A stretch of 64,000 bases of DNA from Pseudomonas sp. FP2309 (GTDB lineage: Bacteria; Pseudomonadota; Gammaproteobacteria; Pseudomonadales; Pseudomonadaceae): contig NZ_CP117439.1 in assembly GCF_030687575.1 (NCBI RefSeq), positions 3,649,501 to 3,713,500 of the forward strand. The letters are read 5' to 3'. The notes below the pieces were generated by a model. That model did no database searches. It saw only the letters and a program-made list of their open reading frames with translations, and was not told where the DNA came from. Numbering within the stretch: position 1 is the stretch's first letter; each line of letters opens with the position of its first letter. Both the position numbers and the translations under genes were made by a program. Below, piece by piece: positions 40,701-45,572 of this stretch.

Positions 40701-41043
40701 CGACACCATCAATAAAATGCGCCGTTTGAAGAAGCTCGGCGTGAGCTTTGCGATGGATGACTTCGGCACCGGCTACTCGTCGCTGACCTATCTCAAGCGC
40801 CTGCCGGTGGATGCGCTGAAGATCGACCAATCATTCGTGCGCGATGCCACGCACGACCCCAACGACGCCGAAATCATCCGTGCCATTGTGGCCATGGCGC
40901 GCAGCCTGAACCTGGAAGTGATCGCCGAGGGCGTGGAGACCCTGGAACAACTGGCCTTTCTACAAAAGCTGGGGTGCCATTTATTCCAGGGGTATTTGCA
41001 TAGCCGCCCGTTGCCGATAGAGCAATTCAGACGGTTACTCTGA
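37768..41043 (+). CDS. Five-PAS GGDEF-EAL c-di-GMP protein
   Basis: A 1091-residue soluble signalling protein without membrane segments. Five PAS domains lie roughly at 25-145, 150-270, 285-410, 415-530 and 535-655 (for example FASLFQASPDPICVTRLDS and FAKAFHSSPDAISITERDT). The GGDEF domain has an intact active site (GGDEF 740-744) and the inhibitory RxxD site (RMED 731-734). The EAL domain keeps Glu873-Ala-Leu and DDFGTGYSS. Both synthesis and breakdown of c-di-GMP are therefore possible, set by signals at the PAS domains. ATG 37768 is used with AAGG upstream. It converges with the effector-like operon. Confidence 0.93.
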   Translation: MRNPVDPVPPLPRIYALDPQAAEQSWDSAPQLLAALYAARLGAWSWEIDTGRISWSRGTQALFGFDPRQPLPKDLDYLDLLASSDRGKVVRAFHAVLAGEPFEQAMHHRIQWPDGSFHWLEINGSLLPDKTGRRRMIGVIREITHQRERESALSHSEKRFATLFHLCPNMVLLTRQSDGLISEANQYFEMLFGWPLANVIGRTTLELGLWRHPEQRAQLVKATQRKGEPISMEVQFCASNGQIHDGTLSAQKVELEGEAYLISTFLDTTERKNAEQALKDSQERLDLALDSAQLGTWDWHIPSGMLYGSARAAQLHGLPPEPFHESFEAFFEGMPDEERESMRNAYRTLREGPAGNYQLTYRVPMEDGTSRYLESRARLYRDEKGAPLRMAGTLLDITDQVEREQRLSASEEKFASLFQASPDPICVTRLDSAAFIEINPAFTQTFGWTAAEVIDKSADQIGLWEAPHQRLERIERVIREQALSNVAVVVHHKNGQSLTCMISSRLIKVGDQPCIVTTLRDITQQQRSEAALKASEEKFAKAFHSSPDAISITERDTGRYVEVNDGFCRLTGYRAEDAIGLTLYQIGIWADENQRSALLAEVTIKGRIHHLEMLWRNKRGELLAVEVSVEPITLNETPCLLLTARDVSLLKNAQAQIRHLAYHDPLTNLPNRALLMDRLSQQIALLKRHNLRGALLFLDLDHFKHINDSLGHPVGDTVLKIVTARLEASVRMEDTVARLGGDEFVVLLSGLEGTRAQVSHQVQELADTLRELLSEPMFLDGQRLQVTPSIGVALIPDHGSTPADLLKRADIALYRAKDSGRNTTQMFHNSMQRTASERLRMETDLRLALARGEFSVHYQPQVDARGNKIVGAEALVRWQHPQLGAQSPSEFIKVLEDSGLILEVGTWILDEACAAFEQLIADGLVDPLNFSLCVNISPRQFRQNDFVERVEHSLKRHSLPFSLLKLEITEGIVIQNLDDTINKMRRLKKLGVSFAMDDFGTGYSSLTYLKRLPVDALKIDQSFVRDATHDPNDAEIIRAIVAMARSLNLEVIAEGVETLEQLAFLQKLGCHLFQGYLHSRPLPIEQFRRLL

Positions 41044-41100
41044 AGCGTCGCGCTAAAGCCAATGCCGGTTTTTGCGCCTGACGGCCAAGCGAACCATTGG

Positions 41101-42291
41101 TCAACGGGACGGCGTATTGACCACCTGCCAAGGTACCGATTGCTCCTCGGCCAGCTCCTTTACGGCGCTTTCACGCATGTAGCCGTACACCCCAAGACGC
41201 CGAAGCGCTTGCCCTGGGTCCTTGCCGTCATTCAGCGTTTGCAGGGCAGCCCCATAACTCTTCGCCACACGAACGTCGTTGCTCTCCAATTGCGCGCGCT
41301 TGGCGCTGACGGCGTACAGAAAGTTGGCGTAATTCAACAACCGTGGGTCACTGCCATAAAAATTCGAGGCCGCGGCGGCCTGACGAATGTGCTCATGGGT
41401 CAACTCCAGCCTGAAAGAATCCCTCATGACGATAACGAAGCCGTCCGAGGCGACTTGAACCTGCTTATAGATCCCTTGGGGATCCTTCCAGAACCGAAGG
41501 ATGGCGGCCTTGATCGCGCAGACCGTGACACCATTGCCTTCCACGCGTTGATAAAAGCCACTCCAGATCCGCGCCGGCGTGGCGCTGCGGGCTGCATCGA
41601 CGGCATGCCCGGCCTCCTCGCCGGCCATGGGGTGGTCGCCGGCAAGTACGTATCCGTATCGCCCATCCGCCTTGTGGCGCTCGCCATACAAATGGTTCAT
41701 CCCGTCCATGACCAGGGCCGAGCCACGGTGATGGGTGCCGACGACGCCTATCGCCCCGTCTGCGGTCATTTTTTCCGACGACACAAATTGAGCGAGACCG
41801 AATACACCCATCCCCTGCAGACATCGCTGAGTCGTCTCGCCCTCAAGGGTGTTTGCCAGGGCCGCCTCGAAACCGCCGTACCCTCCGGTTAATTGTTTGC
41901 GGCTCACAAAGGCGGCAAACATGAAATTCGCATCCTTTACTGCGCCTGAATCAACGCCGTAAAAACGCGAAGCCTCGGCCGCCTGCTGCAGCGCCTGGCC
42001 GGTCAGTTGAACCTCGAAAGCATCCTTCATGGTGATTCGGTAGCCATCACCGACACAGACCAACGCCTTGAACATTCCCGCCGGATGCTGACCAAAGGTC
42101 ATCATCATCAATTTGATCACTGCCGCATGGGTGCTGCAGTCGAAGGCCTGGGCAAACCGGCGTTGCGGCACGTCGAAAGCCTGCAGGATATCCACTGGCT
42201 TTTCCCCCACACCCTTTGAAGAGAGCATCGCAAACGCTGCGCTTTGCCCTTTTTCCGGTATACCCGGACGCACACCCGCAGAGCTCTTCAT
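41101..42291 (-). CDS. Unrecognised protein with two Cys/His-domain copies, candidate type III effector
   Basis: A 396-residue protein with no family that I recognise. It contains two copies of the domain found in the gene upstream. Copy A (about 46-205) keeps a Cys (DCSTHAAVIK, Cys52) and ends in THHRGSALVMDGMNHLYG, where the expected His aligns with Gly191-area residues and two His lie just before. Copy B (about 241-388) matches better (IWSGFYQ...GNGVTVCAIKAA...FYGSDP...FLYAVSAKRAQLE) but has Gly254 where the Cys should be and stops before the His strand. The N-terminus MKSSAGVRPGIPEK lacks acidic residues for 12 positions, as in type III effectors. GAGGG precedes the ATG; it follows its partner by 48 bases. 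Confidence 0.7.
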   Translation of the reverse strand: MKSSAGVRPGIPEKGQSAAFAMLSSKGVGEKPVDILQAFDVPQRRFAQAFDCSTHAAVIKLMMMTFGQHPAGMFKALVCVGDGYRITMKDAFEVQLTGQALQQAAEASRFYGVDSGAVKDANFMFAAFVSRKQLTGGYGGFEAALANTLEGETTQRCLQGMGVFGLAQFVSSEKMTADGAIGVVGTHHRGSALVMDGMNHLYGERHKADGRYGYVLAGDHPMAGEEAGHAVDAARSATPARIWSGFYQRVEGNGVTVCAIKAAILRFWKDPQGIYKQVQVASDGFVIVMRDSFRLELTHEHIRQAAAASNFYGSDPRLLNYANFLYAVSAKRAQLESNDVRVAKSYGAALQTLNDGKDPGQALRRLGVYGYMRESAVKELAEEQSVPWQVVNTPSR

Positions 42292-42339
42292 CCACTGGAT
42301 CCCTCATATTTATCGAAGCCATACTCAGCTCGCAGAGCC

Positions 42340-43278
42340 CTAGATCAGCGCTACGGCGTCACCACGGGTGGGAACAGGGCCGCGACTGCCCCACAGTTCT
42401 TCGCGACCATTGATGACCGCAACTGAATGCCCGGTGCGATTGCACATCCCCAACTGACCGCGAGCGAGTTGCCCCACGGACACACGCTTCATGTGCTGCC
42501 TCAGCCCGAGCCGCACAAAACCCTCCCCGGGCCCATACTCGTCCTCACCATCGTTCAAGCTGCGAATGGCCGCCGCGTAGCTTCTGCCGGCCGTGCGATC
42601 GTTGTTTTCCATCTGCGCGCGCTTGGCGCTGACGGCGAAGAGAAATCGCGCATCCTTGAGCATGCCTTTGTCCGGGCCGTAGAACCGTGCGCCGCGCGCG
42701 CCTTCGGCCAGTTCATGCGCGCTCAGCGTAAGTTGAAAGCCATCACGCATGACCACGTGATAGTCATTACCCATTGTGTGCACCTGTTTGAAAATATCCG
42801 TGGGGCTTTGGCCAAATCGATACATTGCTGCCTTGATGGCCGAAACCGTCACGCAATTACCATCAGGCCCTTGGCGAAAGCCGCTCCAGATACTGGCCGG
42901 CTTTTCACCCCGCCTCTTGCCCGAGAGGCCGGGGATGTCCACCGCCTGGCCCGGCACAGGTGCGTTCGGCACCGGTGCAGGTGTCACTGCGGGCGACGGC
43001 GCGCTATCGGGCATTGCAGGATCTGTTTCAGGAGAGACCAACCCCAACAACCGAGTGAAAAATGACGTGAACAAGGCGATCAAAGCACTGACCCCGGCCA
43101 TGCCTGAGGCTTTGCCAGCGCCCTCAGCAGTTGATCGATAAGCGACAGAACTTGAAGCGTCCCGAGCTTCGGAACTTAATGTGGCGCACGTTTCATTACT
43201 GGCAGCCAATGGGCCAGCGTTCAGCACATGCGATACATTAACAATGCGGGCAATATTATTGATTGAATAGCTCGACAT
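42340..43278 (-). CDS. Unrecognised protein with intact Cys/His/Asn domain, candidate type III effector
   Basis: A 312-residue protein. ATG 43278 is chosen because GGAG lies eight bases upstream. N-terminus MSSYSINNIARIVNVSHV is Ser/Asn-rich with no acidic residue before 29, as in type III secretion signals. A hydrophobic helix follows (about 61-81, VSALIALFTSFFTRLLGLV), then a Pro-rich linker (82-118). The C-terminal domain (about 129-300) has GNCVTVSAIKAAM (Cys142), FYGPDKG, FLFAVSAKRAQMENND and TGHSVAVINGREELWG (His284, Asn290). The Cys...His...Asn order with an HSVAVI strand resembles papain-like peptidases or acyltransferases. No named family recognised. Confidence 0.75.
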   Translation of the reverse strand: MSSYSINNIARIVNVSHVLNAGPLAASNETCATLSSEARDASSSVAYRSTAEGAGKASGMAGVSALIALFTSFFTRLLGLVSPETDPAMPDSAPSPAVTPAPVPNAPVPGQAVDIPGLSGKRRGEKPASIWSGFRQGPDGNCVTVSAIKAAMYRFGQSPTDIFKQVHTMGNDYHVVMRDGFQLTLSAHELAEGARGARFYGPDKGMLKDARFLFAVSAKRAQMENNDRTAGRSYAAAIRSLNDGEDEYGPGEGFVRLGLRQHMKRVSVGQLARGQLGMCNRTGHSVAVINGREELWGSRGPVPTRGDAVALI

Positions 43279-43288
43279 AGCATTCTCC

Positions 43289-43336
43289 AAGTGCACGCAC
43301 TTCTTCAGTTGGACGTACCGCAGAAGTGCACGCACT
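43289..43336. repeat. Direct repeat of a near-palindromic 13-mer before the Cys/His-domain gene
   Basis: AAGTGCACGCACT occurs at 43289-43301 and 43324-43336, 35 bases apart. The first copy extends to AAGTGCACGCACTT, a palindrome with a two-base centre. It abuts the ribosome site of the 312-residue protein, so it could be an operator or translational control site. Confidence 0.5.
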
Positions 43337-43386
43337 GTTCAAGACATTGAAAGAAGTCCGTTCATTTCAGAACGTTTATGCTCATC

Positions 43387-44235
43387 TCACATTGCGCGAG
43401 CGGTTGTCTTTTTAGGACGACTTCCGGCATGGCCAGGGCTGGTTATTTCAGAGGTTGGGCTGTGGCGTAACGCTGTTGGCGCGGTATCTGGCACAGCATG
43501 GGAAGTTGTCACTGACTGCACGTGGCGGTTAACTTCTAACTTCGGCTCGGTTACGGCTGCTCGCTCAGGCGTGGTGTTATCAATGGGTACATAATGACGC
43601 TGTGCAGGGCTGAAATGCCTGCCTGGCTGCGGCTCCATGCGGTTGGTCATATGCTCGATCGGCGGTGCGCTGGTGTCAGGGCAAGGGCAGCGACCCACAT
43701 TGACGTTCAAGTGCACGTTCGCCTTGGCGTCATTGATCACAGCGCGCTCGGGTTGCTGAACGTCGAAAGGCTCAACCTCCGGATGTGGAGAAAATGGCGG
43801 TATTTCATAGGGGTACCTGACGACCGCCGACCTGCCGTCATCCGGTTTTACCGAGTGTGGGTGCGTCTGCGTCGCTGGCACATCGCGCTTACTGGGTTTT
43901 GCTGCTTCCTGCGGTACGACGTTCGCCGGCTGACTTGGGGTCTGCGTCGGCACCACCGCAGCGGCGGGTGCGGCCGGTTGCTTGCCAGGCTCGGCCCGCA
44001 CTTCAAAGGCCGGACGCTTCAAAGACATCATCTCGCGCATGGCTCGGAAGACCATGTCAAGCATGTCAAATAACTTGGTAAGCGCAGCCGCAGGGTTCAT
44101 TACTTCATTGTTAAAAAACGCGGACTCAGCATGATGTTGTGACGGCGTGTGCGGCGTCGCTGGCGAAACAGTATTCTTCTCAACACGGGACGCGTCGACA
44201 GTGACGCGGGGAGTATGACTGACGGATAGAGACAT
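43387..44235 (-). CDS. Pro-rich protein, first gene behind the hrp box
   Basis: A 282-residue protein without a recognised family. AAGGA nine bases before ATG 44235 supports the start. MSLSVSHTPRVTV is Ser/Thr/Val-rich with no acidic residue before 14. An amphipathic helical stretch lies at about 49-71 (ALTKLFDMLDMVFRAMREMM), and most of the remainder is Pro/Ala/Thr/His-rich and probably disordered. A Cys pair (RCPCPD, 183-185) and several His are present. It could be a type III substrate, a harpin-like accessory or an effector partner. Low-complexity composition limits any prediction. Confidence 0.65.
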   Translation of the reverse strand: MSLSVSHTPRVTVDASRVEKNTVSPATPHTPSQHHAESAFFNNEVMNPAAALTKLFDMLDMVFRAMREMMSLKRPAFEVRAEPGKQPAAPAAAVVPTQTPSQPANVVPQEAAKPSKRDVPATQTHPHSVKPDDGRSAVVRYPYEIPPFSPHPEVEPFDVQQPERAVINDAKANVHLNVNVGRCPCPDTSAPPIEHMTNRMEPQPGRHFSPAQRHYVPIDNTTPERAAVTEPKLEVNRHVQSVTTSHAVPDTAPTALRHSPTSEITSPGHAGSRPKKTTARAM

Positions 44236-44336
44236 TAATCGTATTCCTTAGTTGAAAGTTCCTCAGCCCTGATGAGCAACCTGGGAACTTATGGATTATT
44301 CGCTGGAGGCACTTAGGCTGCTTCACAGTCATTCCA
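44236..44336 (-). promoter_or_regulatory. 5-prime leader of the effector-like operon
   Basis: About 95 bases between the presumed start site and the first ATG. AAGTTCC (44256-44262) pairs with GGAACTT (44284-44290), with an inner CTCA/TGAG stem, so the leader can fold. Relevance to expression is unknown. Confidence 0.35.
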
Positions 44337-44364
44337 TTCGTGGAGAGTTAGGCGATCGGGTTCC
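44337..44364 (-). promoter_or_regulatory. hrp box (HrpL-dependent promoter)
   Basis: On the minus strand GGAACC (44364-44359), then exactly 15 bases, then CCACGAA (44343-44337), an exact match to the hrp box consensus GGAACC-N15/16-CCACNNA recognised by the ECF sigma factor HrpL. It lies about 100 bases upstream of the first gene of the three-gene operon. No other match was found in front of the two downstream genes, so one transcript is likely. Confidence 0.8.
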
Positions 44365-44556
44365 GAAAATCGCTTTTAATATAAGGAAACCAATGTCTAT
44401 TTATCGGAAATTGCCCCTACACCTTGCACGCGAAGCGTGATGAAAGCAGGGTTTAACCTGCACAGGCGGTTACATGCACTAATACACCGCACAAGCGCAA
44501 CTAATGGACAATATTTACTCCGCTGTTTGTTGAGGTATTCGTGCTAACGCACACGC
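44365..44556. other. AT-rich intergenic region
   Basis: With the promoter and leader this forms a gap of about 370 bases between the effector-like operon and dusC. It is visibly more AT-rich than its surroundings (for example 44365-44410). No gene, repeat or RNA is recognised. Confidence 0.5.
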
Positions 44557-44586
44557 GCAAAAAAGGGCGCCGCAGCGCCCTTTTCA
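44557..44586 (-). terminator. dusC terminator (bidirectional shape)
   Basis: GGGCGC (44565-44570), four-base loop, GCGCCC (44575-44580), with an A run before and a T run after. It lies about 25 bases downstream of the dusC stop. Confidence 0.8.
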
Positions 44587-44609
44587 GGTCGGTCGAACAA
44601 ACGGTCTGC

Positions 44610-45572
44610 TCAGTGCGCCGAGACCGGGTGAACCATCCCCAACAGTCGACTGACCTGCTCAAGATCGGTCTCGCGCCGCATGGCCGTAAACAACTCCACC
44701 GCTTCCGGGTAATTGCGGGTCAGCATCGCCAGCCACTGTTTCAAGCGGCCGGGCGCCTGCTTCTCCGTCAGTTGTGCAACCGATTGGGTCCAGAACTCGT
44801 GCAGCATGGGTTGCATCTGCGCCCAAGTCATCTCCACGACTTCCTCGCCTGCACGCGCCGCGGCAATCTGGCGGGCCAGGTCCGGGCGCGCCACCAGCCC
44901 GCGACCGAGCATGATGTCTTCAGCACCGCTGACCTCGCGACAGCGCTTCCAGTCATCGACACTCCAGATGTCACCATTGGCGAAGACGGGAACCTTGACT
45001 ACGTCCTGCACGCGTGGGATCCACTCCCAATGGGCGGGCGGCTTGTAACCATCGGTCTTGGTGCGCGCGTGCACCACGATATGCGCTGCGCCGCCCTCGG
45101 CCAGGGCGGTGGCACACACCAGCGCACCGTCGGGGCTGTCGAAGCCCAGGCGCATCTTGGCGGTCACCGGAATGTGGGCGGGAACCGCACGGCGCACATG
45201 CTCAACGATCTGGTTGAGCAACTCCGGCTCCTTGAGCAGTACCGCACCGCCGCGCGACTTGTTCACGGTTTTGGCCGGGCAGCCGAAGTTGAGATCGATC
45301 ACCTGCGAACCCAGCTCGCAGGCCAACGCCGCGTTTTCCGCCAGGCACACCGGGTCGGAACCGAGCAATTGCACACGCAAAGGCACACCTGCCGCCGTGT
45401 GGGCACCGTGCAGCAACTCCGGGGCGAGCTTGTGGAAATAGGCGGGGGTGAGCAGGCGGTCGTTGACGCGAATGAACTCGGTCACGCACCAGTCGATACC
45501 GCCCACGCGGGTCAACACGTCCCGCAGGATGTTGTCGACCAACCCCTCCATGGGCGCCAAAGCAATTTGCAT
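44610..45572 (-). CDS. dusC: tRNA-dihydrouridine(16) synthase
   Basis: A 320-residue FMN-dependent enzyme that reduces uridine 16 of tRNA. The start at ATG 45572 gives [20 protein letters not shown]; a GTG at 45581 is an alternative. FMN-binding segment and catalytic Cys are in [33 protein letters not shown] and [18 protein letters not shown] are typical of DusC rather than DusA or DusB. It stands alone with its own terminator. Confidence 0.93.

Follow-up and report, generated by a model that had tools for sequence, protein, structure and literature searches.

We analysed a window of 64,000 nucleotides (nt) from Pseudomonas sp. FP2309, positions 3649501-3713500 of its single 5.66-Mb contig NZ_CP117439.1 (G000:C1 in our numbering), and examined a hrp box, that is, an HrpL/RspL-type promoter, on the minus strand at 44337-44364. 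We concluded that the box is genuine, and it is its context, not its string, that makes the case: it is kept in relatives and is tied to the genes at its site. The best explanation, with a probability of about two in three, is that the box belongs to an RspL-driven, exchangeable type III effector operon of three genes that delivers a papain-like cysteine hydrolase, the product of gene 2.

Read on the minus strand from 44364 to 44337, the box is GGAACC-CGATCGCCTAACTCT-CCACGAA with a spacer of 15, and it fits, in the right place and direction, the HrpL-type consensus GGAACC-N15/16-CCACNNA as printed in PMC6647874. The end of the box lies 101 nt before the ATG at 44235. Behind it are three co-directional minus-strand open reading frames (ORFs), 44235-43387, 43278-42340 and 42291-41101, with gaps of 108 nt between genes 1 and 2 and 48 nt between genes 2 and 3. 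The sequence-only reading had described an exact consensus match about 100 bases before the first ATG, and on both points it was right; the match is real, and as evidence it is worth little alone. Several counts weigh against our interpretation here. The expected count of GGAACC-N15-17-CCAC in the window is 0.68, and the pattern is present at least once in 53 of 100 shuffles; GGAACY-N15-16-CCACNNA occurs 24 times in the genome versus 27 times for the backwards control, and the GGAACN-type motif 37 versus 48 times. Because the string is at chance level, its match alone is no evidence, and these counts, at or below control level in both window and genome, are what speaks for a chance match in front of an operon unrelated to type III secretion. 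Scans of 40900-44700 for sigma-70 promoters and terminators gave results at or below shuffle level, and the RNA fold at the operon end was unremarkable.

The surroundings of the motif separate it from its controls. We examined 34 of the 37 GGAACN-type matches in the genome and 30 of the 48 backwards-control matches. A spanning ORF of at least 200 amino acids (aa) was lacking at 17 of the 34 sites versus 3 of the 30 controls (Fisher p 0.0009), and 12 of the 34 versus 1 of the 30 combined the lack of a long spanning ORF with an ORF start 10-200 nt downstream (p 0.0016). A scan of genomes for gene-2 relatives gave 50 loci, 45 of them usable for an upstream box test. In 42 of the 45, the family gene is preceded by a GGAACN-type box in sense orientation (GGAACY in 30); the antisense strand, the backwards pattern and each of three incorrect spacings gave 0/45. 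The three loci missed were L052, with a box just outside the searched range, L074, whose box has two mismatches, and L063, which has no box. In the 26 loci L036-L061, the box precedes the operon genes in all 23 that have enough contig to be tested (GGAACY in 22 and GGAACG in one). The first six bases and CCAC are best kept among relatives, and the spacer is variable. Relatives keep the strand and spacing of the box and the controls show none; box and genes also go together at their chromosomal site, and the gene-2 family co-occurs with RspL (both below). We regard chance as a highly improbable origin of the box and reject it on the strand and spacing controls, the spanning-ORF controls and the box-gene association at the site.

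The sequence-only reading depended on hrpL and rsc/hrc genes being present outside the window, and a genome search located them. An rsc/rsp type III cluster lies ~2.9 Mb from the window and includes an HrpL-like sigma factor gene, which encodes a 183-aa extracytoplasmic function (ECF) sigma factor and adjoins a box-led HrpJ/SctW-like gatekeeper gene. Cluster proteins match SctV, YscD-type, SctN, YscO, FliM/N-type (SctQ), SctR, SctS, SctT, SctU, SctC, HrpE-type and YscJ-type components and a sigma-54 activator. No pilin or translocon gene was identified in the cluster; published clusters of related strains also lack some of these genes (PMC6647874, PMC12157919), and strain SBW25 is reported to have been still able to deliver a heterologous effector when its regulator was expressed (PMC2997014). 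Since the 25 NCBIfam matches listed, of 73, include no HrpL-specific family, the name HrpL/RspL rests on place and co-occurrence. The gene-2 family (E 1e-10 or better) is encoded in 29 of 199 genomes of the genus, and all 29 have an RspL match of at least 290 bits. Matches of at least 260 bits occur in 34 genomes, and none of the other 165 encodes the family, including 25 in which an HrpL-like match is more distant (137-185 bits; Fisher p 4.5e-30 for the co-occurrence, a value not corrected for descent). Five genomes (G176, G101, G171, G030 and G198) have a close RspL and no family member at E 1e-10. HrpL-type regulation of the operon is well supported by these data.

The operon occupies a fixed site, with a dus gene on one side and a GGDEF/EAL gene on the other. 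We surveyed the 30 genomes whose dus matches rank highest: 23 carry family genes at this site, six do not and one was unscorable. The box is present in 23/23 of the former and in 1/6 of the latter (G171). In the six genomes without the family, the GGDEF/EAL gene ends 17-778 nt after dus. The G171 locus (L179) has its hrp box 77 nt after dus and the far end of this range, 778 nt, so that other cargo or a remnant may lie between. Identity to relatives is 93-98% for dus and 90-95% for the GGDEF/EAL protein, and only 48-68% for gene 2. Five loci (L062, L064, L065, L066 and L085) hold another gene-2 family member at the dus site behind a box of different spelling, with CCACTGA as its end, an arrangement suggesting that effector genes are exchanged at this one site.

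Gene 2 (42340-43278, minus strand) encodes a 312-aa candidate effector. We chose the ATG at 43278, which is preceded by GGAG, over the GTG at 43335 of the ORF listing. The predicted model consists of a low-confidence N-terminal tail, one helix, a Pro-rich linker and a C-terminal papain-like domain (about residues 124-312). Searches with the three operon proteins found no known domain in Pfam and PHROGs and a single NCBIfam match (PylD, E 0.17, far below cut-off); against the sequences of solved structures, all hits were weak and to unrelated proteins (best E 0.012). By predicted fold, the nearest solved structures are calpain cores, and this was repeated with gene 3. In the 50-row alignment A1 of the gene-2 family, the predicted oxyanion Gln and the predicted nucleophile Cys142 (143 in A1; codon 42853-42855, minus strand) are present in 50/50 rows, and the predicted catalytic His284 (285 in A1; codon 42427-42429, minus strand) in 49/50, the other row having a gap. 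In the predicted model, a helix (143-156, A1 numbering) starts at the Cys and a strand (285-290) at the His. The invariant residues and the predicted fold together make gene 2 a likely papain-like enzyme. Its DGNC string recalls OTU-type enzymes; gene-3 relatives (QGVEGNC) do not share the Asp. OTU enzymes, like C58, C70, papain and cathepsins, are absent from the structure lists, an absence that excludes nothing.

Two points count against the assignment: the fold scores of gene 2 are modest, and Foldseek alone was not significant. With them comes the possibility that the operon encodes an effector whose domain is no protease, being instead another papain-fold enzyme (deamidase, transglutaminase, acyltransferase or deubiquitinase) or a resembling fold. 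The position ten residues after the His, where a third catalytic residue would be expected, is Glu in 49/50 A1 rows; among 405 domain copies, 238 have an acidic residue (Glu or Asp) there. Calpain instead has Asn. Papain-like effectors include deamidases and acetyltransferases (PMC10318531). We give this reading well under even odds, as a serious minority possibility; it shares some ground with the best explanation, and the odds of the readings do not sum to one.

A further alternative is that the operon is HrpL-regulated and its products are not injected, acting instead inside the bacterium or at its surface. PMC3879358 deals with genes that HrpL drives and that are not effectors. The N-terminal signal test of the operon proteins, which looks for an N-terminus rich in Ser, with few acidic residues among its first 12 and an aliphatic residue at position 3 or 4, was weak: the first 50 residues hold 7, 11 and 5 Ser in genes 1-3, versus a mean of 3.1 for the 44 long ATG ORFs of the window, and the aliphatic residue occurs in gene 1 only. 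An effector is the better fit to the disordered N-terminal part that precedes the catalytic-like domain in the predicted model, to the fast divergence of gene 2 between conserved neighbours and to the fact that many genomes encode several members of the family. The name "Type III secretion effector protein" given to relatives in some databases points the same way; none of these points is proof. We consider operation outside the secretion pathway unlikely. The view that all three proteins are candidate type III substrates is supported overall, unequally for the three: gene 2 probably encodes an enzyme of papain-like type, gene 3 lacks the Cys-His pair in this strain, and gene 1 is proline-rich with no known domain.

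Gene 1 (43387-44235, minus strand) is an ORF for a 282-aa proline-rich protein without a family match, and a candidate secreted partner or effector. It has five close database relatives, and more were detected by profile in the loci; a relative is present in 18 of the 26 loci L036-L061. Gene 1 and its relatives begin with MS and have a short amphipathic stretch in common. Several loci, e.g., L038, L039, L043 and L044, retain the box and have no gene 1 before gene 2, and therefore gene 2 does not always need gene 1. Candidate roles for gene 1 are those of a secreted partner, a chaperone-like escort and an effector.

Gene 3 (41101-42291, minus strand; 396 aa) holds two copies of the gene-2 domain by sequence and predicted fold, neither with a Cys-His pair. 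In copy 1 a Cys is kept, and Gly stands where the His would be. In copy 2 Gly takes the place of the Cys, and the C-terminal end that would carry the His is missing because the reading frame there differs from the one in relatives. Of the 26 loci L036-L061, 18 encode a relative of gene 3, with the domain in two or three copies. Counting our own proteins beside their database copies, the Cys-His pair occurs in 117/121 last copies of multi-copy family proteins versus 1/162 of their other copies, and in 121/122 single-copy proteins. Gene 3 of the window is thus an exception in that its last copy also lacks the pair; complete relatives exist elsewhere. No closer relative by which to date its decay was found in 29 sampled genomes, the best having 52% identity. 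Either gene 3 is decaying or its product acts by binding.

The sequence-only reading had called the operon an isolated member of the HrpL regulon, which holds within the window and not for the genome: the 12 sites with a nearby ORF start and no long spanning ORF make the operon one of about a dozen box-led genes, which include the gatekeeper gene and a second gene-2 family member. The latter (L087:1495-2547, minus strand, at about 4.267 Mb) encodes 350 aa with a domain 56% identical to that of gene 2, keeps the Cys and His, has a Gly-rich linker and is preceded by its own hrp box 45 nt before the ATG. Another box-led gene (L103:1541-2584, plus strand, at about 2.066 Mb) has a weak HrpK1 match below cut-off (E 0.0049); its box shares the first 16 bases with the one that PMC2997014 gives for WH6 gene 1942, and two further box matches (L104, L105) lie within 1.6 kb downstream. 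At about 4.382 Mb (L113:1576-1770, plus strand), a box stands 46 nt before a gene for a 65-aa Met/Gly-rich protein with no Pfam match, conceivably a needle or pilin subunit. Among the further possible regulon members, L114 matches Pfam DUF3659, L111 gave weak coiled-coil-type matches and the other four gave none; four are cut off by the locus end.

Taken together, the findings support the interpretation of box and operon first made from the sequence, and the following mechanism may be proposed. RspL, made on sensing a partner, would direct transcription from about 44330, a step seen here from the DNA side alone, and the promoter at 44337-44364 would drive the three-gene effector operon at the exchangeable dus-GGDEF/EAL site. 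The products would leave through the rsc/rsp machine, the gene 1 product probably being co-secreted. The gene 2 protein would present a disordered N-terminal part and linker followed by a papain-like cysteine hydrolase domain (Gln136, Cys142, His284 and probably the acidic Glu294), which inside a eukaryotic partner cell would cut or deconjugate a host protein via Cys142, most likely as a protease or deconjugating enzyme. Gene 3 would be a paralogue carrying two degenerate copies of this domain, here without an active site. More speculatively, and with rather low confidence, the gene-2 family may be an unnamed group of papain-like (calpain-core-like) type III cysteine-protease effectors in the RspL-carrying P. 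fluorescens group at exchangeable sites, with a gene-3 branch of chains in which all copies but the last are dead, acting as binding decoys or regulators, and in which the last copy is dead here too. Type III function in the P. fluorescens group has been called enigmatic (PMC3390384), and most box-led candidates in the group resemble no known effector (PMC6647874). This candidate effector family was seen in no sampled genome without a close RspL, and the gene 2 protein is a lead on the role of a poorly understood secretion system. Loss of Cys142 should abolish the predicted activity, and if the predicted enzyme exists, its substrate would identify the partner cell on which these bacteria act.

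Known and candidate box-led effectors of the P. fluorescens group include RopE, RopB, RopM and RopAA and hypothetical genes of A506, SS101, BG33R, WCS374, WCS417 and WH6, which are scattered over the genomes and mostly without similarity to known effectors (PMC3390384, PMC6647874, PMC2997014). The operon resembles them in promoter type and in having the same kind of rsc/rsp system. Such hypothetical effectors had thus already been predicted in the group; the accessible parts of these papers assign them no enzyme activity, in contrast to the papain-like prediction for gene 2. In the open-licence literature (supplementary effector tables being outside the scope), we found no paper that names or describes the gene-2 family or its fold, or a calpain-like type III effector of Pseudomonas. 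C58 and C70 are papain-like-fold effectors of plant-associated bacteria (PMC10318531), and gene 2 is like them a bacterial candidate effector of predicted papain-like fold; it differs in that neither the window proteins nor the 50 A1 members have a Pfam match to either. The sequences do not support membership of calpain family C2: none of the matches obtained for the 50 A1 members is to PF00648, which has no match in the source genome either, and the kept residue after the His is Glu/Asp, not Asn. The profile comparison with calpains was negative as well (hhalign probability 3% against a shallow four-sequence calpain profile). Three of the four bacterial calpain segments that reach it have an NPWG stretch, which gene 2 lacks, with an acidic residue in place of the Asn. 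Gene 2 has no sequence or profile similarity to the calpain core (C2) and other papain-like (clan CA) enzymes (staphopain, foot-and-mouth disease virus leader protease, PLpro, Josephin-type and PCAT1 peptidase); what it shares with them is the predicted fold and the order Gln, Cys, His.
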